Origin: Holophagae bacterium
Lineage (GTDB): Bacteria; Acidobacteriota; Holophagae; Acanthopleuribacterales; Acanthopleuribacteraceae
DNA: 64,000 bases
Assembly (NCBI GenBank): GCA_029263455.1
Contig: JAJCXM010000020.1
Coordinates: 1-64,000, forward strand
Direction: 5' to 3'
Below the pieces are notes generated by a model, which worked only from the letters and a program-made list of their open reading frames with translations, was not told where the DNA came from and ran no database searches. Of this stretch, positions 1-52,521 are shown piece after piece. The stretch's first letter is position 1. Each line of letters opens with the position of its first letter. Position numbers and translations under genes: made by a program.

Positions 1-1
1 C

Positions 2-157
2 GAATGCGTGCGCGAAATCCGCCAGGCCTGCAGCGAAGGCACACCGGTAACTCGCTGGTTCGAAACCAACGTGGTGACCGCCGGTGGGAAAGTGGTCGCC
101 CGAGTGCGCAAACAGCTGCACATCCGCTTTCGCAAGCCCAAAACATTAAAACCATAA
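2..157 (+). CDS. C-terminal fragment of an unidentified protein
   Basis: The window opens inside an open frame (frame of base 2) that runs 51 codons to a TAA at 155-157. The residues read like ordinary globular protein with a beta-strand-rich end (TRWFETNVVTAGGKVVARVR) and a basic tail. This strand pattern is vaguely like the end of hotdog-fold thioesterases (DUF4442), but that is only a guess. The overlapping longer frame from base 4 is arginine-rich and is probably a shadow. The gene ends 78 bases before the next start. Function cannot be assigned from this fragment. Confidence 0.45.
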   Translation, partial: ECVREIRQACSEGTPVTRWFETNVVTAGGKVVARVRKQLHIRFRKPKTLKP

Positions 158-235
158 CAAATACCAAACTGACCAAGTTGGTGACCTCCAAAAGAGCGGG
201 TCGCCTTTGGCACCAACAATTTAAGGAGTACCATT

Positions 236-925
236 ATGAAAATTAAACTGTTCTTTTCCACCCTATTCCTCAGCAGCATGGCAACCCTGGCAATTTGCGG
301 GACCCCAACCAGTCAGGACCACTCAGGCCTTGATACCAAAGGAATCGATCTCGACAAACTGAGTCAGATGGTGGAGGACATCCGCGCCAATCCTGCGCAT
401 GGCCAAATAGAGTTTCGTGCTGAAGGCGAGAGTGAGGAAATGATCTATCACGGTACGGCCCGTGTCGGTCCATTCAAAGTGGCCGGTCAGGAATTTGGGC
501 AAACGCGCCAATACGTGCTTCACCTGGGCCTGCCTGCCGAATTACAGGGCGAGGTCGTCCATCCTGTAGACCGCATTGAACCTGTTGAATTGGCGCTTGC
601 CGGGCTGAGCGACTGCGTCATTGGGACTGTTGCATTGCATGCATTGCTCAATGGCATTCAACTCGACCATATCTCGGCTACCGTTCGGGCACCATTGAGC
701 GTACAGGTCTTACTGGGCATTGACGGCGTTGAAAAGCGGGATCAGATTTACGGAAAAATTGCGATCAACGTGGAGATTGAGGGCCCGCATTTAACCGAAA
801 AGGAGCGCCTTTTCCTAAGCGAGCAGGTCAAGAGATCGCCCGTATTCAACCTGGTGGCCCTGGGCCATGACATGGACACAACCCTGAGAATCCGAGCGGA
901 ATTGGACACGTCGGCAGCCATGTAG
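236..925 (+). CDS. Exported OsmC-like protein, second cysteine missing
   Basis: This 229-residue protein has a signal peptide (about 1-21) and an OsmC-like domain over roughly residues 55-225. OsmC/Ohr proteins reduce organic hydroperoxides with two cysteines, one at the start of the long central helix and one in a later C-P motif. The first is present (Cys127 in GLSDCVIGT, after the usual P-x-E-L-x-LA segment). The second position reads SPV at 201-203, so the canonical pair is absent. OsmC enzymes are normally cytoplasmic, so an exported form is unusual. An AAGGAG site sits 7 bases before ATG 236. A role in peroxide removal is therefore doubtful; ligand or redox binding in the periplasm is possible. 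Confidence 0.72.
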   Translation: MKIKLFFSTLFLSSMATLAICGTPTSQDHSGLDTKGIDLDKLSQMVEDIRANPAHGQIEFRAEGESEEMIYHGTARVGPFKVAGQEFGQTRQYVLHLGLPAELQGEVVHPVDRIEPVELALAGLSDCVIGTVALHALLNGIQLDHISATVRAPLSVQVLLGIDGVEKRDQIYGKIAINVEIEGPHLTEKERLFLSEQVKRSPVFNLVALGHDMDTTLRIRAELDTSAAM

Positions 926-1083
926 CCAAATGCCATAGCCCGCCTGCTGGTCTGCACGCTAATGCCGCCCAGCAGCGGGTCCTGGCAACCGGTGCCTATC
1001 GACTCGTCTAGACAGATAGAGACACATACACTGACATAAACACGCACGGTCCCGGTAGTTGTCCGTCCTGCCGATGTAGACAA

Positions 1084-1440
1084 TCACTTACTAATTGTGT
1101 TTTGTTTCAACCACTCAATCGCTGCGGATAGCACACTATCAGATTCGTCATCGTTGTCTTCTAATAAAACGTCGGGCCGAACACTACCTGAATAGATTTT
1201 CCCGTGTCGATCCGCCATCCGTGTGGAGGCTAGCATCATGCGCGCTCCGTCAGAGAGGCAAATGCACCGTTGCCTGTTGTCAATCCCCAAGTTGGCTTGC
1301 CAAAAGAATTTGTCGACGAATTACCAATGAACGAAATAGCCACAATCTCTCCAGAGCTCCCCGTCTAGGGACCCAACAGTACGGCGATGGGGCGTTTTTG
1401 CGATTATTCTTGGATCACCTGGTCGACAAGCTTAACCAAA
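1084..1440 (-). pseudogene. Remnant of an S41 family (C-terminal processing-like) peptidase
   Basis: On the minus strand the frame upstream of base 1290 encodes RPIAVLLGP, then TGSSGEIVAISFIGN, then SFGKPTWGLTTGNGAF. This is the catalytic-serine region of S41 peptidases (T-x-S-S-G-E). The match then moves to another frame as CLSDGARMMLASTRMADRHG, followed by VRPDVLLEDN and an AAIEWLKQN end, which is the typical S41 C-terminus (G-x-x-PD). The frame change needs one lost base near 1275. Two in-frame stops also interrupt the first part (TAA at 1404-1406, TAG at 1365-1367). The N-terminal PDZ/S41 half was not found. Three lesions make this a true decayed gene, not a single sequencing error. Confidence 0.75.
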
Positions 1441-1751
1441 AGTGACCCTGCGCGTATACGGTGGACGCAACCCAACTAGGTAACGAGGGCCGCCAAGTGA
1501 TAATCAGGAGACGCTGACTGCCCAAAACACCGGAGACGGCTACGTCTTTAATGAGCGGCTAGGACACGGAAGTTAACGGTCTTTATTATCAAAGCGGTCC
1601 TACTTACACTGTCCCGTATTTTCGCACCCCTGCCGTCGTTTCGCACCCCACGAAATCGGATTTGAAGGAGGTTTGGGAGCTGGTAAAGGCGAACTCGGAA
1701 AATTAGCGCTGGCACTGGCTTGACTTGAAATATATCTTGAAATGTAAAGAC
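1441..1751. other. Non-coding or degraded DNA upstream of the cassette-like genes
   Basis: I see no convincing gene here. The open frames on the minus strand have no domain signature and no Shine-Dalgarno site. Minus-strand text just upstream of the S41 remnant could be more of the same decayed gene, but I could not recognise it. Confidence 0.4.
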
Positions 1752-1811
1752 ACATAACAAAGCGCGCAAGCTGATGGCTTCGCCGCCGATTCGCAGGCTT
1801 GGGCGTCAAGA
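1752..1811 (+). other. attC-like recombination site 1
   Basis: A plus-strand imperfect inverted repeat has the layout of an integron attC site. It starts with ACATAAC (R''-like) and ends with GTCAAGA, one or two changes from the GTTRRRY consensus. The left arm CGCGCAAGCT pairs with GGCTTGGGCG on the right with two mismatches. The centre GGC-TTC-GCC forms a short hairpin. It lies directly before the Shine-Dalgarno of the next small gene. Degenerate ends suggest it may no longer be active. Confidence 0.45.
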
Positions 1812-1833
1812 ACATCTCAAGGGGAGATCGATC

Positions 1834-2223
1834 ATGAGTGAGTCTGTAGCGGGAATCTTTGGGTTGAGTCAAATTGGCCAGATTGCGGTTCCGGTCAGCG
1901 ACGTTGAGAGGGCGATTCGCTTTTACCGGGATACGCTTGGAATGCGGTTTCTTTTTCATGCGCCGCCCGGACTGGGCTTTTTCGACCTGGGCGGCGTTCG
2001 CTTGATGCTGGATGGCCCGGCCAGAGCACAGGCCGGAAACAGCTCGGTCATCTACTATAGGGTTGCGGATCTCAGCGCTGCATTCGAAACGCTGTCAAAA
2101 CGAGGTGTTCAGTTCGAAGCAGAGCCGCATCTGATCGCGAAAATGCCAGATCACGAACTGTGGATGGCTTTCTTTCGCGATCCGGACAACAACCTCATTG
2201 CGCTAATGAGCGAGGTGAATTAG
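1834..2223 (+). CDS. VOC (glyoxalase/bleomycin resistance) family protein
   Basis: This 129-residue protein is one vicinal-oxygen-chelate domain: a first beta-alpha-beta module with IAVPVSDVERAIRFYRDTLG and a second with FFRDPDNNLIALMSE at the end. VOC members include glyoxalases, dioxygenases and antibiotic-binding proteins; the substrate cannot be told. An in-frame ATG exists at 1774, but ATG 1834 has an AAGGGGAG site just upstream and begins right before the conserved domain, so I chose 1834. It is flanked by attC-like sites, as in an integron gene cassette, a context where VOC genes are common. Confidence 0.82.
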   Translation: MSESVAGIFGLSQIGQIAVPVSDVERAIRFYRDTLGMRFLFHAPPGLGFFDLGGVRLMLDGPARAQAGNSSVIYYRVADLSAAFETLSKRGVQFEAEPHLIAKMPDHELWMAFFRDPDNNLIALMSEVN

Positions 2224-2241
2224 GTGATCATGCAGCGATCC

Positions 2242-2300
2242 GCTCAACAAGGCGATCCAGCGGACGCTCTACTCGCCGCGTCTAAACTTGATCGATGTGA
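2242..2300 (+). other. attC-like recombination site 2
   Basis: The spacer after the first VOC gene starts with GCTCAAC and has a hairpin core in which GCGG(A)CG pairs with CGCCGC around a short CTCTACT loop, with an extra-helical A as in attC sites. Outer CGATC on the left pairs with GATCG on the right. The right end GATGTGAG looks like a damaged version of the expected GTTGAGC. It is probably a degenerate attC. Confidence 0.4.
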
Positions 2301-2318
2301 GACTGGAGAAATTTTCAA

Positions 2319-2702
2319 TTGAATACGATTAGTATTAATGCCCCGCAGACCCCTATTCCGGAAGGAAGTTATTCGCAGGCTTTGCTCATCGAGCAGAGTT
2401 CGAAATTGTTATTTATAAGCGGCCAAATCCCCGAGACAATAGCAGGCAAAACTCCAGAAGACTTTGAGTCACAATGTCGACTAGTTTGGTCAAATGTCAG
2501 GTCTCAACTAGTAGCAGCAGAAATGGGCTTTCCTAACCTCATGAAAGTCACGATTTTTCTGTCATCAAGAGAGTTCGCTGACATCAACAGTAGGGTGCGC
2601 CAGGAAGTTCTTGGAATTCATTGCCCTGCTTTAACAGTCGTTATCACCGGAATTTTTGATAAAAAGTGGTTACTGGAAATTGAAGCAATTGCAGCCTCAT
2701 AA
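2319..2702 (+). CDS. RidA (YjgF/UK114) family protein lacking the catalytic arginine
   Basis: The 127-residue protein matches RidA in length and in motifs: YSQALLIEQ near the start, LLFISGQIP, the helix-strand VWSNVRSQLVAAEMGFPNLM, a KVTIFLSS strand, and the terminal LEIEAIA. Canonical RidA deaminates reactive imines and uses an arginine in a P-A-R motif before the last strands. Here that place reads CPALTVV, so the arginine is replaced by leucine. It is therefore likely a non-archetypal Rid subgroup protein with another activity. The start is TTG at 2319 behind GGAG. The TAA stop lies within the next attC-like site, as in many gene cassettes. Confidence 0.78.
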   Translation: MNTISINAPQTPIPEGSYSQALLIEQSSKLLFISGQIPETIAGKTPEDFESQCRLVWSNVRSQLVAAEMGFPNLMKVTIFLSSREFADINSRVRQEVLGIHCPALTVVITGIFDKKWLLEIEAIAAS

Positions 2703-2748
2703 CAAACCGGACCTAGCAGAGCTGAGCCGCTGATGCTGGGCGTTAAGC
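2697..2748 (+). other. attC-like recombination site 3
   Basis: This is the cleanest of the four sites. It runs from TCATAAC to GTTAAGC, which fits the GTTRRRY consensus exactly. Paired parts nest as AAC with GTT, CC with GG, then AGCA-g-AGC with GCT-ga-TGCT around a TGAGCC loop, leaving unpaired bases on one arm. The left end contains the stop codon of the preceding RidA-like gene. Confidence 0.5.
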
Positions 2749-2784
2749 AATCATCTCGACGTCCAAGGTACCAGAAAGGTCGTA

Positions 2785-3159
2785 ATGCCAATGAGAATTA
2801 GCTATGTCATCGTGTTTGTGCGTGACATGAAGGTATCGGTTGAGTTCTACAGAGATACCGTCGGCGTGCCTGTCCGATTTGAATCAACGCACTGGACCGA
2901 GTTCGAGACTGAGGGCGCAACCCTGGCTTTGCATCTCGGTGAAGGCACTGGCGATAGAGGTCTTTCTACCAAAAACGGAGCGCCCGGGATATGTCGCCCC
3001 GGCTTCAGCGTTCCAAATCTTCAAGACTTTCACCGCCGCGTCATTTCAAAGGGGGTGCAGTGCGTACAAGAACCCAAGGATGTATTCGGGGCACAAGTCG
3101 CGTTGTACCTTGATCCCGACGGCCTCGCAATTTCTGTGGGCGAGGAGCGAAGTGTTTGA
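2785..3159 (+). CDS. VOC family protein (second in cluster)
   Basis: The 124-residue protein starts ISYVIVFVRDMKVSVEFYRD, the classic first strand and helix of VOC proteins, and ends with VALYLDPDGLAISVGE, the second module's final strands. Substrate is unknown. It differs clearly in sequence from the VOC protein at 1834, so it is not a recent duplicate. ATG 2785 or ATG 2791 could be used; an AAAGG lies upstream of both. It sits between attC-like sites 3 and 4 in the same orientation as its neighbours. Confidence 0.82.
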   Translation: MPMRISYVIVFVRDMKVSVEFYRDTVGVPVRFESTHWTEFETEGATLALHLGEGTGDRGLSTKNGAPGICRPGFSVPNLQDFHRRVISKGVQCVQEPKDVFGAQVALYLDPDGLAISVGEERSV

Positions 3160-3169
3160 GCCAGCGACA

Positions 3170-3244
3170 GCCTAGCAAATCATTGCAACGGTCCTTACCG
3201 CCAGCTTCGCGGCCAGCATTGCATCTGAATGCCAGCCGTTAGCG
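3170..3244 (+). other. attC-like recombination site 4
   Basis: The spacer after the second VOC gene is a longer imperfect inverted repeat. AACGG (3187-3191) pairs with CCGTT (3236-3240), and the centre CCGC-cagcttc-GCGG forms a hairpin. The right end GTTAGCG is close to the GTTRRRY consensus. The left end could be either GCCTAGC at 3170 or TTGCAAC nearer the core. Confidence 0.42.
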
Positions 3245-3355
3245 AGATCGAGAGTTCGATGAACTTCCGCAATCGATCCATTTCTGCCAATTGTTATTTT
3301 AACTAGAATCTATCAGCAGGTTCTGCTTAGATTGATCAGATGCGAGGTTAAGACC

Positions 3356-3895
3356 ATGAGTTTCGATGTAACAGAATTCAAACAGATGTTAGCAGACTAT
3401 CTTGATGACTGTGTTGAGATAAGAATCATGGACTATATTGGTGACACAAACCCAATAGGGGGGCCAAGCCAAGGAGTAAATATTGACGTTGGTGAAACCC
3501 ATAGCTTCGATATAGAAGCGAAGAACAATGGATCTCTAGGCTTGATGAACGTTCACGTCGAAATAGAGGCGAGGCGTGGCAAGGTTAGCAATTCCTGGTA
3601 TGGCCTGATTAACACGGCGGGTTCCCATTGGATGGCGCCGTGGCATACGTCAATGGCAGTGCGAGCCTTTAATCTCGACCCGGGCCAATCCTATTTACAC
3701 AAACACGAAACGAGCGGTGGCCACCTGTTCGGATACAACGCGGAGGAACCCACAGGGGGTAGCGACAACAATCGAGACGTAGAGATCCTACTTACTGCGA
3801 AGATTGTTGCGTGGCAGCCAGACTTATCGAAGTTTGGTTTTGACACCAAGAATGGACCACAAGATACGTGGGAGACTTTCATTCAACGGACCTGA
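3356..3895 (+). CDS. Unrecognised 179-residue protein
   Basis: I do not recognise this family. The product has an acidic N-terminus (about 1-35) followed by a beta-rich segment with GETHSFDIEAKNNGSLGLMN. That resembles the start of an Ig-like or CARDB-like beta-sandwich, where a phrase about added length of an unstructured linker is common. Trp residues cluster near 80-95 and the C-terminus is acidic. There is no signal peptide. The frame could begin 24 bases earlier, but ATG 3356 has GAGGTTAAG upstream and starts the natural reading MSFDVTEF. It is the last gene of the cassette-like cluster; no attC-like site was seen after it. Confidence 0.6.
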   Translation: MSFDVTEFKQMLADYLDDCVEIRIMDYIGDTNPIGGPSQGVNIDVGETHSFDIEAKNNGSLGLMNVHVEIEARRGKVSNSWYGLINTAGSHWMAPWHTSMAVRAFNLDPGQSYLHKHETSGGHLFGYNAEEPTGGSDNNRDVEILLTAKIVAWQPDLSKFGFDTKNGPQDTWETFIQRT

Positions 3896-4100
3896 TTCTG
3901 CACAGCAGGATACTCTAGTAAGGCGTACGTCTACTTCTCGCTGAATCTGCGGGTAATAACCATCGGCGGATAATATCGATGGTAACTGGGATTAGGGCAC
4001 TGCCTGAGTCATCGCACGACGTGAAAAAGAGCGAGTGTATTCCCAAACCCGTGGATGTGTGCCAAGTTCCTGGCTCTGAAGCATGGCGCAAAGTGACGAC

Positions 4101-7100
4101 CTAGTTTGGCGCTACCACGACCTCAACCATATTGTCGCTGCGGTCGGCTTCTAGCTTTAGCAGGGTGGGGTCTATGACCGCTCGCTTGGGACGCACGTTT
4201 GTTTTTAGGTCCAGGCTATGTTGACCCGCCTCCAGAACGTAATCGCGTTCGAGGATGACTTCATCGTTGTCAGCCACGAGCTGGATCCGGTAGGATTTTG
4301 GTCCGTCGATATGGTCCCCTCGTGGTTGCACTTCCATGACCAATAGCGTTAGCCAAGCATCGGTTTCGGCCCGTGTGCTTGCGCTGCTAATGGATAAGTC
4401 GTACCAGGCCACACGCTGGAATAGGGTTTCGAAAAGAGAAAGCTGATCGGCTTGTAGGTGCGGGCGGATGAGGTCAAGCAAATCACTTGCTGTGGGCTTC
4501 TTCGGGTATCTGAACTCATCGATTAACTGGCGCAGAATCTCGTTAACGCGCGCTTCACCCAACATGTCTCGCAACAAGTACATCGCGTGGGAACCTTTGA
4601 AATAGGCCACATAGGCTTCAGATCCAACTTGGTGGAGCGGTGGTTCTGGGTTCTCGTCATAACTGCGCCAAGTAAAGTAGAAGGCGTCCATGGCCTTCTG
4701 GTAGGCGAGCGTCGAGGTCAGGCCAAATCGTTTTTCGGTCACCACCATTTGCGAATACTCGGCCAGCGTTTCTGCGAGCATACGCGCGCCGTGACAATCG
4801 GCCGGATCAACTTGATGCGCCCACCATTGATGGCTCAGCTCGTGTGCCATCAAGCGGTAAAAGATATCCGACGAAGAGGTCCCTTCATCAATCCGCAACG
4901 CTCGATCTTCTACTACATAAATCAGACCCGGATACGCCGTTGCCGCAAATGAATCTGAAAACGATGGGATCTCTGCGATCACCAATTGCTCATGAGGGTA
5001 GGGCCCAAAATTGGCTTCGAAATAGGTCAGGGCATCAACCGCGCTCATTAATATAGTATCTACGTTTTCCTGATGATGCGCGCCAGTCAATACTCGAATC
5101 GGCACATCACCGTAAAGCGTGGAACGCTCGACGTAAAGACCGCATGATATGCCCAACCCCAGACTGATCGGGTCACGCGACTCATACACGTAAGTGGTTC
5201 TGGGTCCAGAACTGCTGACGTCAAGGCAGGATCCCGGTGCCAGAACCTGCTGGCCTGTATCCGTGGTAATTCGAGCTTTGAAAAAGACATGGTCCTCAAG
5301 GGTTTTAGGCAGACCGGCACAATCATCACGAGTAGGAAGTGCCTGAAGCCCGCGCTTGCTCCGTTCCCGCTTGTTGGTTATCACCATGGCGTTCTGATAG
5401 CCAAGACTTGGGATAGCTTTGTCCATTTCCAAGTAACTCGATCCTGGCGTGACGTAGAGTTCCGGGTTCGGGGCTCTTAGCCCGCTGAAATTCGCCTCGA
5501 CGGTGAAACTCAGTTGATCCACTTGGCCCACCTGTAATCCAGATTGCCAAAGAATCACGTAATAGCCAAAAGAGTCATCCACTTGACGAATCGATCCCAA
5601 ACTACTTTCAATTCCAAGCAAATTGACCGAGTCGGGAATATGAATGAGTAGTTCGTGAATGGGATCAGCGTGTTGGTTGATTAACTCGAAGCTGCCTTGG
5701 GCGAGTAAGTTGCGTTGATCGGGCGCAATATCCATATTCAATGAAACGGTTGTTATCTTCGGAATCTGGTCCTGCGCCCGATGGGCCCATTTCCTCTCAT
5801 GTCCTGCCAACCAATCGTACCGAGCAGACTTGGAGGTCATCCGCGGTCTGAGGTCGACTTTCGATCTAAGGGTCAGGCCCGACGCGGTTAATATGAAAAC
5901 ACCCAAGAAAGCCATTCCCACTAACAGTGGGTGGTGACCTTGACCGAATCTGCGATTCTGCCAGTAGGCGATGGTGCCCGCGGACAAAACGGTCAGGATG
6001 CTTACTGCATACGCGAATGGCCATAAGAAACTCCAACCCACAATGCTGGTTCGGGCAAAAGTGGAGTAGTCAAAAGAGGGCGACCAAATGATTCGCCAGA
6101 ACGGGTGGTTGAAGCCAGGAACCCTGGAAATAATGACGCCGGTGAAGAGCATTACTACCAGGAAAGAGACCAACATGCCGGCATACTTGTTAGGAACCAG
6201 GTTCAGTACCACCAATGACAGCGCCGCTACCAAAGTGAGCGGAATCCAAGCCTGCACCACAAATAGGCTGACGGCCGTCAGATCCACACCCGCTGAGCCT
6301 AATAACGTTTGGAACCCTAAACCCAGCGCTAGGGTGCCAACAACCAACGCCAAAGTCAATGTTGCCAAGACGATGAGTTTTGCAGCGAAGTGAGACCAGA
6401 CTCTTAGACCGCTGGTGAAAATCAATTCGTGGATTCGGCATTGACGTTCAGCCCAAAAGAGTTCGGCAGTAAAGAAAAGAACCATTAATGCGCCTAGCTT
6501 GACCAGCGGCTCATGCAAAACATTGAGCACCAGGGCGGTATCCACATAAAGTCGATGATTCAAAAAGCCACCGCGCTGCTCATCAAACAAGGTCACCGCG
6601 CAAAAGAACACCCAAAGCAAGAGAAGTAGGTAAAAAGGGGCACTTCGAAAGATACCGCTTAAGCCAAGACGGACCTGGGCACCAATCTGCCGAATATCCC
6701 TAGAAACGCCCACAGAATGTCTGGAGACTGCCTGGTAAGCGACTGTGGCCCAAGTCTCATTGACCTCAATTTCCTTTGTGCCCTGAAGCGGTTCACGAAA
6801 CCTGAAGAAACGCAACGTCAGAGCAAATAGACTAGAGGCCATTCCCAGCCACAAGAGCCGATTCATGAGCAAAGCTCCTTGGACGGGGATCAGCGAATCG
6901 TTTTGCTGCTCCACCGTCCAGAAGCGCACCGCCTCAAGGATTCCAATCAATCCGAACGGCTCTAATAAGGTGATGGGATTGGAATCGCTAGGCGCGTAGG
7001 GCGATGATTGCGCCATCAGCGGAGAATTACCCAACGCAGACGCTAGCCAATAGGCAATGAACAAGCCAACCCCTACGACGTAGGTAGCCATTGAGTTACG

Positions 7101-7595
7101 CGTCAACGTGGCCGCCGTAAAAAGCGATGAGCAACAGATGAGCAGATTGGGAATCACAAGCACCACGAACGCCCAAATGTAAGGTGCCGCGACAATTGTC
7201 CCCATATTGCTGCGGTCCGCAAAGAAGAGGTGGCCGAATACCAAACCCAAAACAGCCGGCGAGAATGCCAATATGGCACTCAAACACAAGCCCACGAATC
7301 GACTGACCAAGTACTGGAAGTGGGTGATTGGCGTTGAGAAAATCAATGGCTCCATACCGCTTTCTCGATCTCGTAACACTGACTGCGGTGCGAACAGAAC
7401 GACCGCGAACAGAGCGTTTAGGCTCAATATCCCGATTCTCAGAGCGATGGCAATGGGCGCATTCTGGAGAGCGCCACCGGGCATAGGCGCGACGGCCATG
7501 AGCAGACCGAGCACAAAAAAGATGGCTGCCGCAAGCCGGAACGTGGTTTGTTTCGAAAAGTAGCGCAGCTCAAAGGCGATCAAACGAACTAGCAT
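4101..7595 (-). CDS. ABC-2 type permease fused to an M1 family aminopeptidase
   Basis: This 1164-residue fusion has about 12 membrane segments in its first ~590 residues, arranged as two ABC-2-like halves. A large extracytoplasmic part follows with an M1 aminopeptidase domain. Zinc ligands are visible: HELSH at about 918-922 and a Glu 20 residues after the second His, in AETLAEY. The extra residue compared with classic M1 enzymes is, from memory, normal for this fused family. It overlaps the upstream ATPase gene by one base (TAATG), so the two are surely co-translated. The likely role is ATP-driven transport or sensing linked to peptide cleavage outside the membrane; the substrate is unknown. 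Confidence 0.9.
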   Translation of the reverse strand: MLVRLIAFELRYFSKQTTFRLAAAIFFVLGLLMAVAPMPGGALQNAPIAIALRIGILSLNALFAVVLFAPQSVLRDRESGMEPLIFSTPITHFQYLVSRFVGLCLSAILAFSPAVLGLVFGHLFFADRSNMGTIVAAPYIWAFVVLVIPNLLICCSSLFTAATLTRNSMATYVVGVGLFIAYWLASALGNSPLMAQSSPYAPSDSNPITLLEPFGLIGILEAVRFWTVEQQNDSLIPVQGALLMNRLLWLGMASSLFALTLRFFRFREPLQGTKEIEVNETWATVAYQAVSRHSVGVSRDIRQIGAQVRLGLSGIFRSAPFYLLLLLWVFFCAVTLFDEQRGGFLNHRLYVDTALVLNVLHEPLVKLGALMVLFFTAELFWAERQCRIHELIFTSGLRVWSHFAAKLIVLATLTLALVVGTLALGLGFQTLLGSAGVDLTAVSLFVVQAWIPLTLVAALSLVVLNLVPNKYAGMLVSFLVVMLFTGVIISRVPGFNHPFWRIIWSPSFDYSTFARTSIVGWSFLWPFAYAVSILTVLSAGTIAYWQNRRFGQGHHPLLVGMAFLGVFILTASGLTLRSKVDLRPRMTSKSARYDWLAGHERKWAHRAQDQIPKITTVSLNMDIAPDQRNLLAQGSFELINQHADPIHELLIHIPDSVNLLGIESSLGSIRQVDDSFGYYVILWQSGLQVGQVDQLSFTVEANFSGLRAPNPELYVTPGSSYLEMDKAIPSLGYQNAMVITNKRERSKRGLQALPTRDDCAGLPKTLEDHVFFKARITTDTGQQVLAPGSCLDVSSSGPRTTYVYESRDPISLGLGISCGLYVERSTLYGDVPIRVLTGAHHQENVDTILMSAVDALTYFEANFGPYPHEQLVIAEIPSFSDSFAATAYPGLIYVVEDRALRIDEGTSSSDIFYRLMAHELSHQWWAHQVDPADCHGARMLAETLAEYSQMVVTEKRFGLTSTLAYQKAMDAFYFTWRSYDENPEPPLHQVGSEAYVAYFKGSHAMYLLRDMLGEARVNEILRQLIDEFRYPKKPTASDLLDLIRPHLQADQLSLFETLFQRVAWYDLSISSASTRAETDAWLTLLVMEVQPRGDHIDGPKSYRIQLVADNDEVILERDYVLEAGQHSLDLKTNVRPKRAVIDPTLLKLEADRSDNMVEVVVAPN

Positions 7596-8473
7596 TAGTT
7601 GGCTTCCTGATTGCGCTGAAGAACTCTGAAATACACGTCTTCCAGACCTGGCTCGATGAGCTTGAAACCGGGTTCCGGTTGGCCATCGTGTAGGACATGA
7701 ACTTGTAAGTGACCAGATCGGAAACGCGTGGAAAGGACAAGGTACTTCTCCTTACATTCGACCAGCGCGTTTGTAGGTAGTGTCTTGAGCCATACCCGGT
7801 CGCGGATATTGGCCAGCAGTTTGTCGGGCTGACCCTGCTCGAGAATCTCGCCGTCTCCCATAATGGCCACCTGTTCACATAGGTCGCGAATATCTTCAAC
7901 TATGTGGGTGGATAGAATCACCACTCGATCGCGACTCACATCGCTTAAAAGGTTCAGGAACCGATAGCGCTCCTCGGGATCCAATCCAGCCGTAGGTTCA
8001 TCCACAATTAACAACTGAGGGTCGGCCAGTAGCGCTTGCGCGATGCCAAAACGCTGGCGCATGCCTCCGGAAAATGTACCGACAGCCTTGTTTCTGACAG
8101 CGTATAAATTGGTCTGCTGCAGCAAAGCGTTGACCTGCTCTATGCGGGTCTTTTTTGTGATCAGGCCCTTGAGAATGGCCAAGTGGCTCAGCAAATCAAA
8201 AGCTGAAATGCGGGGGTAAACGCCAAACTCTTGCGGTAAATAGCCGAGCCTTTCGCGTACCACTTGCGGGAATTTTACGATATCGACGCCATCGAGTAAG
8301 ATTCGGCCTTCATCAGGCCGCTGAAGCGCTGCAATGGTTCGCATGAGCGTGGTTTTGCCAGCGCCATTGGGACCCAGCAAGCCAAACAAGCCGCGGTCGA
8401 TCTCGAGATCAATGCCCTTTAACGCTTTGGTCCCATTGGGGTATGTCTTTCGTAGACTTGTAACTGATAGCAT
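7595..8473 (-). CDS. ABC transporter ATP-binding protein
   Basis: The 292-residue protein carries Walker A GPNGAGKTT at 34-42, the signature FSGGMRQR, Walker B LLIVDEPTAGLD and a switch histidine in STHIVEDI. The last ~80 residues form a C-terminal extension seen in exporter ATPases that pair with ABC-2 permeases. It is the first gene of the pair with the permease/aminopeptidase fusion and supplies its ATP hydrolysis. It faces away from the LytS/LytTR pair across a 196-base gap that should hold both promoters. Confidence 0.95.
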   Translation of the reverse strand: MLSVTSLRKTYPNGTKALKGIDLEIDRGLFGLLGPNGAGKTTLMRTIAALQRPDEGRILLDGVDIVKFPQVVRERLGYLPQEFGVYPRISAFDLLSHLAILKGLITKKTRIEQVNALLQQTNLYAVRNKAVGTFSGGMRQRFGIAQALLADPQLLIVDEPTAGLDPEERYRFLNLLSDVSRDRVVILSTHIVEDIRDLCEQVAIMGDGEILEQGQPDKLLANIRDRVWLKTLPTNALVECKEKYLVLSTRFRSGHLQVHVLHDGQPEPGFKLIEPGLEDVYFRVLQRNQEAN

Positions 8474-34278: not shown

Positions 34279-35091
34279 ATGATTTTGTATATGCTCAAAA
34301 TAATGGACAGTTTAACCTCGTCGCAACTATCCCAATATCTGCATCGAATAGGCCTCTCAGAGCCGCCTGACGTCGATTTGTCAGGGCTGCGAATCTTACA
34401 AACGGCGCAGTTCTTTTCGATCCCCTTCGAAAATTTCGATATTAGGCTGGGTCTACCGATTGATGTAAGTAACGAGGCCATATTTGAAAAATTGGTTAGG
34501 CAGCGTAGGGGCGGTTACTGTTTTGAGCTGAACGGGTTGATGTTGCAGGTGCTAAAAAAGCTGGGGTTCAGTGCTCGACCACTGTTAGCTCGCGTTCACA
34601 TGACAGATCCACCCAGTGCGAGGACTCATCAATTGACCCTGGTAGAATTTGGAACGGATGCGTGGCTGGTCGATGTTGGCTTCGGCGCTGGAGGGCCTCG
34701 GACAATTATTGAGCTGAAGGACGCCGAAACCCAACTATCAGACGAATGGGCCTATAGGCTGTCTGTGCTTGAGCCATGGGGCTGGATGTTACAAACACGC
34801 GAGTCGGGTGGGTGGAAGAACAGTTATAGTTTTGATCTGGGTCACGTCATTTTTTCAGATATTGAGTTGGGTAATCACTTCACCTCAACTTCTGAAAATA
34901 CTCATTTTACACAGGTTAGTGTCGCCAGTTTACCAACGCCAGAAGGCCGCATTAGTATTCGTGACCTCATTTTTACCGAGGTAGATGCGACGGGAACCCA
35001 GTCCTATCCCATTAGTCGGGAATGGTATCTTGAAAAAGTCGAAAGCGCTTTCGGGATCGAGCTTCCAGCTATCCCACCAATGTCATGCTAA
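34279..35091 (+). CDS. nat: Arylamine N-acetyltransferase
   Basis: This 270-residue enzyme (about the usual NAT length) transfers acetyl groups from acetyl-CoA to arylamines. The Cys-His-Asp triad is visible: Cys in RRGGYCFELNGLM (about residue 80), His in ARTHQLTLVE, Asp in WLVDVGFGAGGP. The phrase IPFENFDIRLGLPIDV is also typical. Several starts are possible (34279, 34291, 34303); the last begins MDSLTSSQL and fits the family best, but I kept the first. It converges with the thiDE gene, with stops overlapping by four bases. Confidence 0.93.
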   Translation: MILYMLKIMDSLTSSQLSQYLHRIGLSEPPDVDLSGLRILQTAQFFSIPFENFDIRLGLPIDVSNEAIFEKLVRQRRGGYCFELNGLMLQVLKKLGFSARPLLARVHMTDPPSARTHQLTLVEFGTDAWLVDVGFGAGGPRTIIELKDAETQLSDEWAYRLSVLEPWGWMLQTRESGGWKNSYSFDLGHVIFSDIELGNHFTSTSENTHFTQVSVASLPTPEGRISIRDLIFTEVDATGTQSYPISREWYLEKVESAFGIELPAIPPMSC

Positions 35092-45793: not shown

Positions 45794-46201
45794 TCAGCGG
45801 ATGCCGCGAGACACGGAAATTGCATTTCGTAGAGCCATTAATATTAAAGCACTGATCAAAATCAAAGCGGGCCCACGCCAAAAATCGATGCGCGAATAAT
45901 AGCGTGCCGTTTGTTTTGGGTCTTGCCTCTGGTATAGGACCGTTACCGCGTCGTCATGGTTGAGACGCTGCAAGAAGTTATCTGGAACCGTTACCAGAAA
46001 GCGGTTGTTGCGGAAACTAGCATCCTCAAAAATGATGGTTACATCCAGGTCCCGACCAATGGACACAACCTTATCAACCGTGCCATCGGCTTTAAGGCCT
46101 GAGTTTACGTCATACAGCACATAAGCAACGTAAACCAAACCAGCCATGAACAGTAAGCTGGCGAGCTTTGTAACATTATTTCGAACGTTTTCCTTACTCA
46201 T
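45794..46201 (-). CDS. DUF3592-like small membrane protein
   Basis: The 135-residue protein has one helix near the N-terminus (about 14-30) and one near the C-terminus (about 108-126), enclosing a beta-rich periplasmic segment (GTVDKVVSIGRDLDVTIIFE, NDDAVTVLYQ-like). This two-helix layout with a V-x-Y-x-P-like strand fits DUF3592 proteins of unknown role. It is the first gene of the minus-strand kinase operon, 42 bases before the kinase start, and is divergent from the rhomboid gene. Confidence 0.7.
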   Translation of the reverse strand: MSKENVRNNVTKLASLLFMAGLVYVAYVLYDVNSGLKADGTVDKVVSIGRDLDVTIIFEDASFRNNRFLVTVPDNFLQRLNHDDAVTVLYQRQDPKQTARYYSRIDFWRGPALILISALILMALRNAISVSRGIR

Positions 46202-46322
46202 ATGGTTCCCATATTAAACAATCCACCCGGATCGGGCCAGAGTCAGATGGATTGGCAGCGTGGCTTTTCTCGTCTATACTCGCTGCGCGTCCCACTATGA
46301 CGCCGAGGCCGATGCTTTTTAA

Positions 46323-47042
46323 ATGATCAAAATATGGGATAACTACCGCATACCCGGTCGCGCGCGACTGGTTTATGTCCTGATATTCGCCAACTTTTTG
46401 GCACACTGGGTGTCGTTGCAGCATGGCGGCATATTTGTTGAGGCCGGGGCTGTAATCCCCGCTGAATGGTTTGCGGATAGTAGCGGATCCCCAGCAGGGC
46501 GCGCTCCCATATTGGTCACCGTCTTCTGGAGCCTGTTCTTGCATGGCAGCTGGGGACATCTCTTTTGGAATATGGTTTTTCTGCTCATATTCGGTCGTAA
46601 TTTAGAAGCGAAACTGAAGAGCTGGCGTTTTTTGGTTCTCTACCTTTCTTGTGGCGCAGGAGGTACGGTCGCCCAAGTCTTGGCGGAAAGCCACCCACAG
46701 GCCTTAATTATTGGTGCTAGCGGTGCCATTAGTGGCCTGATGGGTGCCTATTTTGTCTGGTTTCATGATCATATGTTGAGGGTGAGAATTGGGTTAAAGG
46801 CCTCGAATATCCGAGAATTCGAATTCCCAATTTGGATGGCAATCAGTTTGTGGCTGATGCCGACACTCATCAATGCCTTTTTGCCCTTGCCTGGAGTTGA
46901 CTCCCGCATCGCCTATATGGCCCATGTAGGTGGGTTTGCGTGGGGATTTATGGTGGCAAAACAACCCTTTAGCCGTAAAGGTGCAGGGTTGCGGGTGGTT
47001 AAAGGCGGAAAAGCGGGCCAGGGTCCCTTTGTGAACGATTAA
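46323..47042 (+). CDS. Rhomboid family intramembrane serine protease
   Basis: This 239-residue protease has six to seven membrane segments. The catalytic serine lies in IGASGAISGLMG (G-x-S-G), the catalytic histidine in YMAHVGGFAWGF, and the conserved loop reads HGSWGHLFWNMVFLLIFGR. It should cleave membrane proteins within the bilayer. It is the first gene of a plus-strand run and has an 11-base gap to the next gene. Confidence 0.95.
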   Translation: MIKIWDNYRIPGRARLVYVLIFANFLAHWVSLQHGGIFVEAGAVIPAEWFADSSGSPAGRAPILVTVFWSLFLHGSWGHLFWNMVFLLIFGRNLEAKLKSWRFLVLYLSCGAGGTVAQVLAESHPQALIIGASGAISGLMGAYFVWFHDHMLRVRIGLKASNIREFEFPIWMAISLWLMPTLINAFLPLPGVDSRIAYMAHVGGFAWGFMVAKQPFSRKGAGLRVVKGGKAGQGPFVND

Positions 47043-47053
47043 GGAGCAAAATA

Positions 47054-48676
47054 ATGGTTATTTTCTTGAGTCTTTGGACGGTGATTATGGGTGCCAATGA
47101 ACATGCGTCAAGTGATCTACGCGCGGAATTAGATAAGTTTGCCGAAGTGGAAATGTCGGTGGACCTCACTCACCTGAAACCTTGGGAGCGCCAGGTTCTG
47201 AAGAAGTTGTCTGAGGTTGCGGTAGTGCTAGATCGTATCTATTTATCCCAAGTGGCTGAGTCCAACCCAAAGACGCGAGAACAAATTGCCGCATCTGAGA
47301 ATAAACAACGCGAGCAACTGTTGCTGATGTTCGATTTGCATTATGGCCCGTGGGATAGCTTAAATGGTGACGCCATCTTTTATGGTGATCAGCCCAAGCC
47401 ATTAGGTGCTGGCGTGTACCCCGTGGACATGACCAAGCTTGAGTTTGAGACATGGATCAACGCGCATCCAGAAGATAAGGCATCCTTTGAAAGCCTTTAT
47501 ACCGTCATTCGTCGCGATCAAGATAAGTTGGTGGCCATTCCTTACAATGTCTATTACCGCGGTGATTTGGAAAAGGCCGCAGGGCTTTTGGCAGAAGCTT
47601 CCCACCTAAGTCAAAATGCTAGCTTAAAGAAGTTCCTGGCTTTAAGAGCGAAAGCTTTTCTAAGTGATGATTACCAGGAATCAGAAATGGCTTGGATGGA
47701 TTTGGATAGCTCTATTGAAGTGGCTGTAGGCCCCTACGAAACCTATACAGATCAGCTGTTTGGTCAAAAGGCTTTTTTTGAGATTTTTCTGACGGTTCGT
47801 CATCCAGAAGAGAGTGCCAAGCTCGACAAATATAAGAAGTTCCTGCCCGAATTCGAAAAGAACTTGCCAATTGCAGACGAACACAAAAATTTTAAGCGTG
47901 GCTCTGAGTCTCCGCTGGCGGTGGTTGATCAAGTATGCGGTGGCGGCGATAACCGGCCGGGCGTGCAAACCATCGCTTTCAATTTACCCAATGATGAAGT
48001 TGTGCGCGAGAAGAAGGGCTCAAAGAAGGTGATGCTACGCAATGTCATGCGCGCCAAATTTGACAAGATTCTGCAGCCGATGGCCGAACTCATCCTTCCA
48101 GAGGATCGTCGCAGTATGGTGAATTTCCGTGACTTTTTTGATGAAGTTCTCTTCCACGAGTTGGCCCATGGGCTGGGTCCCGGTTCGATTCGCATCGATG
48201 GCCGTGAGACAACGGTTGCAGCTGAGTTAAAAGAAACATATTCAAAACTCGAAGAAGGTAAAGCCGATGTCATGGGTGTCTATAACTTGCTCTTCCTTAT
48301 GAATCGGGAAAAGGCAGCGCCCGAACAAAAAAGCGAATTGTTGGCAACTTACTTTGTTGGTCTCTTCAGGTCCATGAGGTTTGGTGTCCACGAGGCCCAC
48401 GGAGCGGGAGCAGCCTTCCAATTCAATTACTTACAAGAGCGCGGCGGTTTCACGAGAGACGGTCAAAGTGGATTATTTATTCTTAACGAAGCGGCGCTTG
48501 TAAAAGCAATAGATGAACTTGTGCATGAAGTGTGTATGATACAAGCCGAGGGTGACTATCAAGCAGCGGTTCAATTCCTCAATAAATATGCATCCATGCC
48601 GAAGGATGTCGCCGAAATAACGAAACGGATGACATCGATCCCGGTAGATATTCGGCCTCAATATCCTCAACTCTGA
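47054..48676 (+). CDS. M49 (dipeptidyl peptidase III)-like zinc metallopeptidase, exported
   Basis: The 540-residue protein has a weak signal-like N-terminus. Its core carries FHELAHGLGPGSIRIDG, in which HELAH would hold the zinc, and about 45 residues on KLEEGKADVMGVYNLLFLM, whose E-E-x-K-A-D is the matching ligand motif. From memory, this pairing marks a bacterial DPP III-like group with HExxH in place of the six-residue HExxxH of classic M49. The preceding VCGGGDNRPGVQTIAFNLPN segment is also family-like. AAGGAG precedes the ATG. Its likely role is peptide degradation outside the cytoplasm. Confidence 0.78.
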   Translation: MVIFLSLWTVIMGANEHASSDLRAELDKFAEVEMSVDLTHLKPWERQVLKKLSEVAVVLDRIYLSQVAESNPKTREQIAASENKQREQLLLMFDLHYGPWDSLNGDAIFYGDQPKPLGAGVYPVDMTKLEFETWINAHPEDKASFESLYTVIRRDQDKLVAIPYNVYYRGDLEKAAGLLAEASHLSQNASLKKFLALRAKAFLSDDYQESEMAWMDLDSSIEVAVGPYETYTDQLFGQKAFFEIFLTVRHPEESAKLDKYKKFLPEFEKNLPIADEHKNFKRGSESPLAVVDQVCGGGDNRPGVQTIAFNLPNDEVVREKKGSKKVMLRNVMRAKFDKILQPMAELILPEDRRSMVNFRDFFDEVLFHELAHGLGPGSIRIDGRETTVAAELKETYSKLEEGKADVMGVYNLLFLMNREKAAPEQKSELLATYFVGLFRSMRFGVHEAHGAGAAFQFNYLQERGGFTRDGQSGLFILNEAALVKAIDELVHEVCMIQAEGDYQAAVQFLNKYASMPKDVAEITKRMTSIPVDIRPQYPQL

Positions 48677-48690
48677 ACGAATTCAGGTGC

Positions 48691-49674
48691 ATGACGTCTG
48701 TCACTGGTATTTATGTCACATCTGAGATAATCTTTATGACCAGTATGCGTGAAGAACAAGAATCCACACAAGAATCGAAACGGGACTCGGGCATTCGCGA
48801 GCGGCTTGGGTCATGGTTACGTGACTCGATATCTGGAATCAATATTGTCCAGCGTATCCAAAGCAATCTGCGTTGTGTTTTTGGACTCAGCGAATCGGAT
48901 TTTGAAACCGAAAGTGGTCGTGAATTCATAGCCGCTATCGACCTCATTGTGCGCAAGGGTAAGCCCATAACCACGATATTTGAGAAGCCCGAGGTGTGGC
49001 ATTCATTTGAAGCACTGGTCAATCATTTTTCTGAAGATACAGTGACCATTACGCTCAAGTCGGGTAAAGAGCAGGCCGAACAAGAGTTCAAACTATTTCA
49101 GAGCCTCCACCAATATGCGCTCGTATGTCGTAGTGACGAACATCGAATTCTTGACTACCAAAAAATGTTGGAATCGGACGTCGGTTTCTTTGAGAAAAGA
49201 CGACTGCAAAAGCAAATAGCTGAAGCCAAAGCACGAATCAGTGACCGTACCAGTATGTTTCAGAAACTGGTTTTTTCGGAGGCCGATCGCATAGAGCGCG
49301 GTGAGCCAGGAAGGGTTATCGAAGTCGACGGTCAGGCACATTCGTTCAAGGATTTGACCGATGGTCTCCTGTCTTTGTCTCAGCGGTTCGAAAGTCTTAA
49401 TGACGATGGACCCCCTCTCTCGATGGATGAATCGGCTTCTGGCGCTCAAGATGGCGATAATTTATTACGACCGGCACCGCTGCCGTTTGATACGCCTGCG
49501 TCTGTGCAGATTGAGAAGCAGGCTGACAAGGAATCTTCTAGCCGTTTAACATTGCGCAAGCCCCCACCACGACCGGCTTTGAAACCGGCCGATATTATTG
49601 AATGGCAGGAACTGACCGGCAAGAAACAGGTCGAAGAAGACGAAATAGATAAATCGTTTAGGCTAGATTTTTAA
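48691..49674 (+). CDS. Unrecognised coiled-coil-rich protein
   Basis: The 327-residue product has no signal peptide or membrane helix and I do not recognise a family. Residues ~45-140 read as mixed alpha-beta (SDFETESGREFIAAIDLIVR), then a charged helical hairpin (~140-200) with EKRRLQKQIAEAKARISDRT, and a Pro/Asp-rich linker. The C-terminal motif IIEWQELTGKKQVEEDEIDK is separate and may be a docking peptide. Start could be ATG 48736 (MTSMREEQ), which begins a more typical N-terminus. It lies 15 bases after the M49-like gene. Confidence 0.6.
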   Translation: MTSVTGIYVTSEIIFMTSMREEQESTQESKRDSGIRERLGSWLRDSISGINIVQRIQSNLRCVFGLSESDFETESGREFIAAIDLIVRKGKPITTIFEKPEVWHSFEALVNHFSEDTVTITLKSGKEQAEQEFKLFQSLHQYALVCRSDEHRILDYQKMLESDVGFFEKRRLQKQIAEAKARISDRTSMFQKLVFSEADRIERGEPGRVIEVDGQAHSFKDLTDGLLSLSQRFESLNDDGPPLSMDESASGAQDGDNLLRPAPLPFDTPASVQIEKQADKESSSRLTLRKPPPRPALKPADIIEWQELTGKKQVEEDEIDKSFRLDF

Positions 49675-49686
49675 GGTCTTGAGCTT

Positions 49687-50403
49687 GTGAACCACGCTCC
49701 CTTGATACGCCGCTACGGTCCGTTGGATGTGGTGGAAATTGGCCGTCTCGAAGCGAAAGTCGTCATCGTCATGTTCCACGGCTATGGAGCGGATGCTTTT
49801 GATCTCTTTCCCTTGAGTCAACAGATAGCTTCCGGATCGGATGTTCGTTGGCTATTTCCGCAGGGACTCATCGAAGTGCCAATTGGATTCCAACAAACAG
49901 GTAGAGCTTGGTTCCCCATAGACATGGTGGCGCTTAATCAAGCGATGTCCACAGGTAGCTTTCGGAATTTCTCCGACGTCAGGCCGGCAGGCCTGGATGA
50001 TTCTGTATTAGCGGTAAAAGCCATGCTAGGTGAGATCGAGCACCCATTTGACCGAACCGTTCTGGCTGGTTTCAGTCAGGGAGCCATGATAGCCACGGAG
50101 CTATCTCTAACCGCTGAATGCGCGCCCGCTGGACTGGGCATCTTGTCAGGCACGTTGTTAGATCGGGAAGCCTGGCGAAAAGCGGCGCGGTCGCGTCTAG
50201 GGCTTAATTTCGTCCAGAGCCACGGTCGAATGGACCCAGTTTTGTCGTTCGCTGCGGCTGAGGAACTTAACCAGATCCTACGATCGGCAGGTTTGATCGG
50301 ACATTTCTACCCATTTCATGGTGGACATGAAATACCCGTTCAAGTTTTAAAAGGTTTAGACGAGCTCGTTCGAAAAGTGGAGAGGGCTTGTGTCAAAAAG
50401 TAA
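49687..50403 (+). CDS. Phospholipase/carboxylesterase family alpha/beta hydrolase
   Basis: The 238-residue protein is close to the usual length for small esterases of this family. It has VIVMFHGYGADAFDLFPL (oxyanion-hole strand), the nucleophile elbow GFSQGAMIATEL (Ser in G-x-S-x-G), Asp in QSHGRMDPVLSF and His in FHGGHEIP. It hydrolyses small esters or lysophospholipids; the true substrate is unknown. The start is GTG with a weak AGG upstream. It lies within the same-strand run after the rhomboid gene. Confidence 0.9.
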   Translation: MNHAPLIRRYGPLDVVEIGRLEAKVVIVMFHGYGADAFDLFPLSQQIASGSDVRWLFPQGLIEVPIGFQQTGRAWFPIDMVALNQAMSTGSFRNFSDVRPAGLDDSVLAVKAMLGEIEHPFDRTVLAGFSQGAMIATELSLTAECAPAGLGILSGTLLDREAWRKAARSRLGLNFVQSHGRMDPVLSFAAAEELNQILRSAGLIGHFYPFHGGHEIPVQVLKGLDELVRKVERACVKK

Positions 50404-50488
50404 TTTGTATTTTTGACGATTATTAGTTGTAAAAAGTTGTAGTGGTGTAAGCTTACGGCGACCGCGTTTGCATGTTGGGGGTGTTTTG

Positions 50489-52510
50489 ATGAAGTGTTGC
50501 TATGCATGGGTCGCGCTGTGGGCCTGTATATTTACGTACGCGCAAGGACCCATATTTGAACAGCCGTTGAGTCCTCGAATAGCCAGTTACCGGATAGATG
50601 TGGATTTACAACCAGAACATCGATTGCTAACCGCAACGCAGCGTATCCTCTGGCGAAACACAACCGATCACCCGGCAACAGAATTACAGTTTCACCTTTA
50701 TCTCAATGCTTTTCGAAACGATCAATCCACCTTTATGAAGGAGTCGGGTGGTCGCCACAGAGGTAACGAAATTGACGGCAAAAAAGGCTGGGGTTTTATT
50801 GATTTGCATCATTTGGCAGGTCGACTTTTGACCGAGGATGAGACGGGGCCTTTTTGGAGCGAATCGCAATGGCCGGCTATGGGTGATGAAGAGTGGGTCT
50901 TGAACCATGAATTTATTCAGCCTGATGACGACAATAAAGACGATAAAACGACCATTCGGGTTCCGCTGCCGGAACCGGTTCCGCCGGGCGGTAGTATCTT
51001 GTTAGAAGGATCATTTGAAGCTTGTCTACCGTCCCCGCCTTTCGCGCGCACAGGCGCTAAAGAGGATTATTTTTTTGTTGGCCAATGGTTCCCCAAAATA
51101 GCGGTACTCGAAGCAGACGGTCAATGGAATTGCCACCAGTTCCACCTCAACTCTGAGTTTTTTGCCGATTACGGCACTTACGACGTCTACATGACGGTGC
51201 CCAGCGACTACGTCGTCGGTTCAACCGGGCTGGAACAATCGGTTTCAGACACTGAAGATGGGCGTAAGATCCACCACTACCATGCCGAGGACGTGCATGA
51301 TTTTGCTTGGACCACCAGTCCGGAATTTGTCGAGTTCAGTGGTCAGGCTCAGGATGTGGCGATTCGCGTTTTGATGCAGAAAGATCATGTCGGTCAAGGT
51401 GAAAGACACTTGCGCGCGGCCAAACATGCGGTTGAATACTTTCAAAATTGGTACGGCGATTACCCATTCCCTAATTTGACCGTTATTGATCCCCGACGTG
51501 GGGCGGCAGGTTCGGGTGGCATGGAGTACCCAACTCTAATCACAGCGGGTACTCACTACGGATTACCCGAAGGGATACGAGCCGTTGAATTGGTCATCAT
51601 CCACGAATTTGGCCATAACTTTTGGTATCACTTGTTGGCTTCTAATGAGTTCGAAGAGACTTGGCTTGACGAGGGCATAAATAGTTACACCGAAGCAAAG
51701 ATCATGAATGATATTTATGGCGAGCATGCGAGCGTCATCGATATTCCTGGCTTGAAGATCGGTAATATGGTTTTTCACCGCTCTCGTTATGTGTCGGGGT
51801 CGAATCTTGACCCAACCGTACGCGACGCTTGGACTTATTACAACGGTTCTAGTTACGGCATCAACTCATATAGCAAACCTGCCATTATATTGAGCACCTT
51901 GGAACACTATTTGGGTGAAGACAAGATGTCACGGCTGATGAAAACCTACGTAAAACGACATTCGTTTACCCATCCCACAAGTGATGATTTTGTAGCGATC
52001 GCATCGGAAATTGCCGGTGAAGACATGGGTTGGTTCTTTGACCAGGCTCTGTATACAAATAAAGTCATCGATTACAGTGTCAGCTTCATCAAGTCAGTGG
52101 AAATTAAAGAGGCTAGCGGATTCGATTTCTCCATGACGCGCGACGATTTACTAAATGACGTGGAGCTGGATGAAGAAGAGGAAGCTGCGGATGAGGACAA
52201 GAACTACCGTAGCGAAGTCAGGGTGAGACGTCTGGGCGACTTTGTGTTTCCTGTTGAAATAGAAGTGGTGTTTGATGATGGCGAGGTCGTTAGAGAGAGC
52301 TGGGACGGCCAGGATATATGGAAGAAATTCTTTTATGAGCGCCAAGCTAAAGTCACATCAGCGACGGTCGACCCGGACGCCAAGATCCCTATGGACATTA
52401 ATTTGGTGAATAACAGCAAAACGGAAAAGATCGCCCGTGCACCCGTCACTCGAATGACTGCGTCATGGCTGGACAAATTCCAGATCCTCCTGGATCTGTT
52501 GGCGCTATAA
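50489..52510 (+). CDS. M1 family zinc metallopeptidase, exported
   Basis: The 673-residue enzyme has a signal peptide (about 1-19, ending TYAQ), the substrate-binding GSGGMEYPTLI and zinc motif HEFGHNFWYHLL followed by Glu 19 residues after the second His in WLDEGINSYTEAK, the standard M1 pattern. Acidic stretches near 560 (DELDEEEEAADEDK-like) may be a linker. It cleaves N-terminal residues from peptides outside the cytoplasm. The frame opens at 50468, but ATG 50489 has GGGGGTG upstream and starts the signal peptide. It is distinct from the ABC-fused M1 gene at 4101. Confidence 0.92.
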   Translation: MKCCYAWVALWACIFTYAQGPIFEQPLSPRIASYRIDVDLQPEHRLLTATQRILWRNTTDHPATELQFHLYLNAFRNDQSTFMKESGGRHRGNEIDGKKGWGFIDLHHLAGRLLTEDETGPFWSESQWPAMGDEEWVLNHEFIQPDDDNKDDKTTIRVPLPEPVPPGGSILLEGSFEACLPSPPFARTGAKEDYFFVGQWFPKIAVLEADGQWNCHQFHLNSEFFADYGTYDVYMTVPSDYVVGSTGLEQSVSDTEDGRKIHHYHAEDVHDFAWTTSPEFVEFSGQAQDVAIRVLMQKDHVGQGERHLRAAKHAVEYFQNWYGDYPFPNLTVIDPRRGAAGSGGMEYPTLITAGTHYGLPEGIRAVELVIIHEFGHNFWYHLLASNEFEETWLDEGINSYTEAKIMNDIYGEHASVIDIPGLKIGNMVFHRSRYVSGSNLDPTVRDAWTYYNGSSYGINSYSKPAIILSTLEHYLGEDKMSRLMKTYVKRHSFTHPTSDDFVAIASEIAGEDMGWFFDQALYTNKVIDYSVSFIKSVEIKEASGFDFSMTRDDLLNDVELDEEEEAADEDKNYRSEVRVRRLGDFVFPVEIEVVFDDGEVVRESWDGQDIWKKFFYERQAKVTSATVDPDAKIPMDINLVNNSKTEKIARAPVTRMTASWLDKFQILLDLLAL

Positions 52511-52521
52511 GGGGGGATGAG

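Follow-up and report, generated by a model that had tools for sequence, protein, structure and literature searches.

Clusters of attC sites lacking an integrase (CALINs) and degraded integrons in general are well-known phenomena (PMC9024848), and the cassettes of CALINs can be mobilized in trans by a functional integron integrase, IntI (PMC12444791). In the Xanthomonas chromosomal integrons with an inactivated intI gene, intI is lost or broken, the arrays are kept, and further CALINs are found at other loci (PMC12444791). Chromosomal integrons are also present in the bacterial class to which the genome studied here belongs: of 93 class members, 46 have an intI that scores above the family cut-off, and class genomes G011-G079 (e.g., L046-L051) carry arrays with nearly identical attCs of about 124 nt, like large chromosomal integrons. 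Another system of interest is an integron of Tibeticola sediminis (L148), whose first cassette lies between a truncated intI (2357-2935, minus strand, opposite to the cassette gene; TIGR02249, 5e-35, covering about 100 of 315 profile positions) and an attC that scores 23.4 bits and folds with a z of -4.8. Our coverage of the literature was partial, and in it we found no paper dealing jointly with Acanthopleuribacter and integrons.

Here, we describe an array of four small genes in a Holophagae genome that is very probably a decayed integron cassette array, i.e., a CALIN relic, fixed in the chromosome, whose integrase has been lost. We regard it as a well-supported example of a relic type that is already known. 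As in a CALIN, attC-derived sites are found among same-strand, cassette-type genes with no integrase nearby; unlike in a CALIN, decay of the sites has gone so far that the covariance model we used recovers fewer than the two attCs by which CALINs are recognized. The likeness to the Xanthomonas integrons extends to the loss or breakage of intI, the retention of arrays, and the presence of attC clusters at other loci; the lineage is different, however, and the intI fragments here adjoin repeats shared with REP-associated tyrosine transposase (RAYT) elements. The integrons of the same class include one in which a homologue of the third array gene is a cassette, but these integrons have long attCs (about 99-126 nt) that resemble one another, whereas those in our array and on a second contig of the genome (C11) are mostly short and mixed. 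Lastly, the first Tibeticola cassette encodes an 81% identical homologue of the first array gene, and the attC behind it can be aligned with one of our sites; in that case, by contrast, the cassette adjoins a truncated intI, and the attC is intact and folds well.

The array and its genomic setting

The stretch of DNA analyzed (“the window”) spans positions 1-64,000 of contig C20 (JAJCXM010000020.1), which is 291,910 bases long and belongs to assembly GCA_029263455.1 (6.25 Mb, 40 contigs, 95% complete). The array is 1.75 kb from the contig end. On its left flank are an OsmC-like gene (236-925) and, just beside the array, the remnant of a peptidase S41 gene on the minus strand (1084-1450). The remnant is not a cassette; it contains frameshifts and stop codons, carries adjoining pieces in two frames, and matches PF03572 with an E-value of 0.0013 and 18.8 bits, below the Pfam family cut-off of 24. 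On the right flank, a gene encoding an ABC-permease/M1-peptidase fusion (4101-7595) lies on the strand opposite to the array genes, as does the gene for its ATPase. An Rfam search of window positions 1-8000 gave nothing beyond a chance 5.8S-like match.

An initial reading of the locus, made from the letters alone (“the sequence-only reading”), had described four small same-strand genes encoding a VOC protein, a RidA-like protein, a second VOC protein, and an unknown protein. Pfam matches and coordinates bear this out, with all four genes on the plus strand. Cassette 1, VOC1, encodes a protein of the glyoxalase/fosfomycin-resistance fold (1834-2223; PF00903, 1.7e-15 when the longer frame from 1774 is taken). 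Cassette 2 encodes the RidA-like protein and has a TTG start (2319-2702; PF01042, 5.6e-17). Cassette 3, VOC2, encodes another glyoxalase-fold protein (2785-3159; PF00903, 6.4e-12). Any substrates ascribed to the VOC and RidA proteins are presumptive. The orphan, gene 4 (3356-3895), belongs to no family: it has no Pfam or PDB match, and no relative was found in a collection of genome contigs, in plasmids, or, at 1e-5, in a further 395 genomes from the phylum. Its single-sequence structure model had a pLDDT of 33.9 and was set aside. The status of gene 4 as a complete cassette may be doubtful, as the downstream attC is missing; a scan of the region after the gene (s5, 3890-3987) gave background scores only, none of them convincing.

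Two of the four genes have homologues that are integron cassettes elsewhere. VOC1 homologues with 70-83% identity occur in several phyla, the first Tibeticola cassette being one of them. At two further loci (L152 and L153), attC-like remains could be seen by eye after the stop codon of the VOC1 homologue. No attC was found at the threshold used at 34 of the 37 VOC1 homologue loci examined, so VOC1 also travels or resides outside integrons. In a relative (G066), a homologue of VOC2 with 58% identity comes after the 99-nt attC of a GNAT cassette. RidA had no match at 1e-25 in the 395 other phylum genomes, and no cassette homologue was found for RidA or gene 4. Comparison of VOC1 with four homologues gave dN of 0.11-0.13 against dS of 0.9-2.1 (dN/dS of about 0.06-0.15), indicating that VOC1 has been kept by purifying selection.

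The array was not found as DNA in 60 relatives. In the sole congener (G004), an unrelated gene directly follows the M1-peptidase orthologue (47% identity), and that genome lacks an orthologue of the left flank. Among seven relatives that were searched, none matched the left neighbor of the array, so that no empty site could be compared.

Sites between the genes

Four decayed attC sites, s1 to s4, can be recognized on the plus strand, before and between the genes. Site s1 (1752-1811; R'' ACATAAC, R' GTCAAGA, with GTT changed to GTC) precedes VOC1 and would be the attC of a lost cassette on the left; its first 14 query letters are identical to an attC on C11. Site s2 (2242-2303; R'' GCTCAAC, R' GTGAGAC), between VOC1 and RidA, extends to 2303, past the nearest palindrome, and is the site that can be aligned with the attC downstream of the stop codon of the Tibeticola VOC1 homologue. 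In s3 (2697-2748; R'' TCATAAC, R' GTTAAGC), the R' box is intact. As the sequence-only reading had noted, it fits GTTRRRY exactly, and the RidA stop codon, TAA, sits inside the R'' box. The best preserved site is s4 (3170-3244; R'' GCCTAGC, R' GTTAGCG), which has an R' two positions off GTTRRRY and shares 74% identity with a pair of intact C11 attCs. The same reading had called s1, s2, and s4 degenerate, as their R' boxes indeed are: GTT is lost in two of the four sites (s1 and s2), and since only one of the four, s3, has an exact GTTRRRY at the cassette end, we consider the sites to be relics rather than functional.

To score the sites, separate profiles were built for the left arm (R''-L'') and the right arm (L'-R'), and the training set consisted of attCs from plasmid-borne cassettes of class 1 integrons, together with attCs of integrons found in the same bacterial class. 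A Kovacikia plasmid integrase locus (L065) was also tried as a training source and gave no useful sites. With a profile trained on no sequence from the source genome, s4, s2, and s1 had left arms that ranked first, second, and fourth among 127,958 window positions, and just one further window position attained the same score; for s3, the right arm ranked sixth among 127,970 positions. When the C11 sites were added to the training set, the left arm of s1 and the right arm of s3 each ranked second. Only s4 has both arms recognizable. Within 2.2 kb on one strand, 0.014 such left arms are expected, and the Poisson P for three or more is about 5e-7, a value that needs no correction for position because the place of the array had been named beforehand by the sequence-only reading. 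In a full-site scan of both strands, the array supplied four of about ten best matches, although the outer boundaries of s1 and s3 were misplaced. Two other searches were rejected: a profile scan demanding both arms missed the window sites, and a stringent attC finder, which required 7 of 8 L pairs without gaps, did not detect any site even in genuine arrays. An isolated attC-like sequence elsewhere in the window (34451-34501, minus strand; profile score 26.8; covariance model 12.4 bits, E = 1.1) has no partner site near it and is perhaps due to chance.

Covariance and folding analyses gave a weaker signal. A home-made covariance model, built from 16 attC sites, placed s4 at the top of its matches in the window, albeit weakly (15.4 bits, E = 0.19), and did not list s1, s2, or s3; a standard covariance model would probably fail to pick up these three as well. 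Against the IntegronFinder 2 rule of at least two attCs, four attC-derived sites can be counted by profile and one by the home-made covariance model, and an integron finder run with default settings would probably not call a CALIN of two or more sites here; for this reason, “CALIN relic” is a better name than CALIN. Single-strand folds of s1-s3 were no better than those of shuffled sequences, and the fold of s4 was modestly better (z of -2.2) but non-canonical, i.e., not an attC hairpin. This test is a weak one, since the intact C11 attCs themselves reach only z of -1.3 to -1.5. What is recognizable in the array is therefore the box sequences, not stable hairpins. The attC architecture that the sequence-only reading had seen in the spacers accordingly stands for the attC-derived boxes, as ranked by their arms, and finds no clear support in the bottom-strand folds. 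That reading had also named what would count against it, namely that covariance models call no attC and that relatives conserve the gene order with unrelated spacers; in the event, the covariance model ranks s4 first, though weakly, and the array DNA is absent from the 60 relatives.

These results also bear on whether the array could be an ordinary gene cluster whose spacers resemble attC by chance. Genes of the VOC and RidA types are often found outside integrons, three of the sites fail the covariance model, and the folds are weak. Nevertheless, such a coincidence is very improbable given the arm ranks and their clustering, the cassette homologues of two genes, and the true attCs in the same genome.

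Integrase fragments and attC clusters elsewhere in the genome

No integron integrase gene was found within the 64,000-base window, the left side of which is limited by the contig end, and no intact intI was found in the genome, where no place scores above the integron-integrase family cut-off. The sequence-only reading was therefore right that the window lacks an integrase gene, and its proposal of a CALIN is supported by the attC-derived sites, the cassette homologues of VOC1 and VOC2, and the failure to find an integrase. Other integrase matches in the genome are partial and similar to what control genomes give; they probably represent XerC/XerD. With an assembly of 40 contigs that is 95% complete, an intact intI may sit in a gap.

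A CALIN that can still be mobilized, with poor sites but with cassettes that could be moved by an integrase supplied in trans, would be consistent with the exact GTTRRRY of s3, the two arms of s4, and the trans mobilization by functional IntI on record (PMC12444791). We consider this unlikely, because GTT is gone in s1 and s2, the folds of s1-s3 do not surpass those of shuffles, and the genome yielded no intact intI. The array is probably no longer mobilizable.

Remains of an integron are present on C11, as a broken platform at C11:34700-38400 and 45900-52900 (L043 and L044). The two C11 attCs that match s4 score 40-47 bits with the covariance model and have a RelE-type/NadS-type toxin-antitoxin pair between them; further attCs, in both orientations, lie nearby. 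To the right of the C11 attCs are two copies of the intI 5' region, encoding an N-terminal fragment (C11:46771-46953 and C11:52609-52848). Among NCBIfam models, the products match only those for integron integrases, and they are 45% identical to the N-terminus of a relative's IntI. The copies adjoin different cassettes and are 93% identical to each other from an attI-like junction onward, the junction being the point at which the neighboring cassette terminates with GTTAGGC. One copy ends at a repeat that recurs on C11 beside RAYT genes. Another piece of this intI stretch, 46 bases long, is found at C11:39137-39182. A third cluster is located at a contig end, at C30:1-4000 (L143), with two attC-like sites (918-978 and 1367-1433), a YefM/YoeB toxin-antitoxin pair (1477-1991), and an adjoining RAYT-type fragment. 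The attCs on C11 and C30 are better preserved than those of the C20 array. A stem-loop pattern search over the genome gave no match, and our attC census of genomes is a lower bound, with 150 candidates per genome scored in the covariance search.

The position of the array apart from C11, with which it shares s4-like sites, raises a variant of the best explanation that concerns its origin: that no standing integron was ever here, and that cassettes excised from a C11-like array were inserted at a secondary, attG-type site and then decayed. Insertion of this kind has been described (Loot et al. 2024, as cited in PMC12444791). We regard this origin as possible but rather doubtful, as s1 is itself an attC, so that the left end is no bare insertion, and the left neighbor, unmatched in the seven relatives, leaves no empty site to compare. 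Equally tentative is the broader suggestion that the genome holds an integron in the course of breaking up, a process hardly described in this lineage, with intI broken into several pieces next to RAYT-type repeats and the cassettes remaining in three or more attC clusters (C11, C30, and C20) decayed to various degrees, C20 being the oldest.

A possible history of the array and its implications

For a decayed cassette array whose integrase has been lost, the following order of events may be proposed. At least three cassettes (VOC1, RidA, and VOC2) would have been inserted successively by an integron integrase cutting attC at G^TT, possibly the same enzyme that acted on the C11 cassettes. The attC of a lost cassette would precede VOC1, with the orphan gene 4 after VOC2. 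The integrase would then have been lost, leaving N-terminal intI fragments on C11. With no recombination left to select for the sites, the attCs would have drifted: GTT to GTC in s1, GTT to GTG in s2, and TAAC to TAGC in s4, with loss of the left arm in s3. Since VOC1 has been kept by selection, the array genes are probably ordinary residents now, hardly mobilizable; the loss of GTT in two sites, together with selection on VOC1, fits resident genes in a frozen array.

The array indicates that integron relics can be recognized below the usual level of detection, through the clustering of half-sites and through cassette homologues in other integrons. Counts of arrays without intI are thus probably too low. 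The genome also allows the loss of intI and the decay of attCs to be compared among arrays within a single organism, and VOC1 provides an example of a cassette gene that is kept by selection once mobility has been lost.
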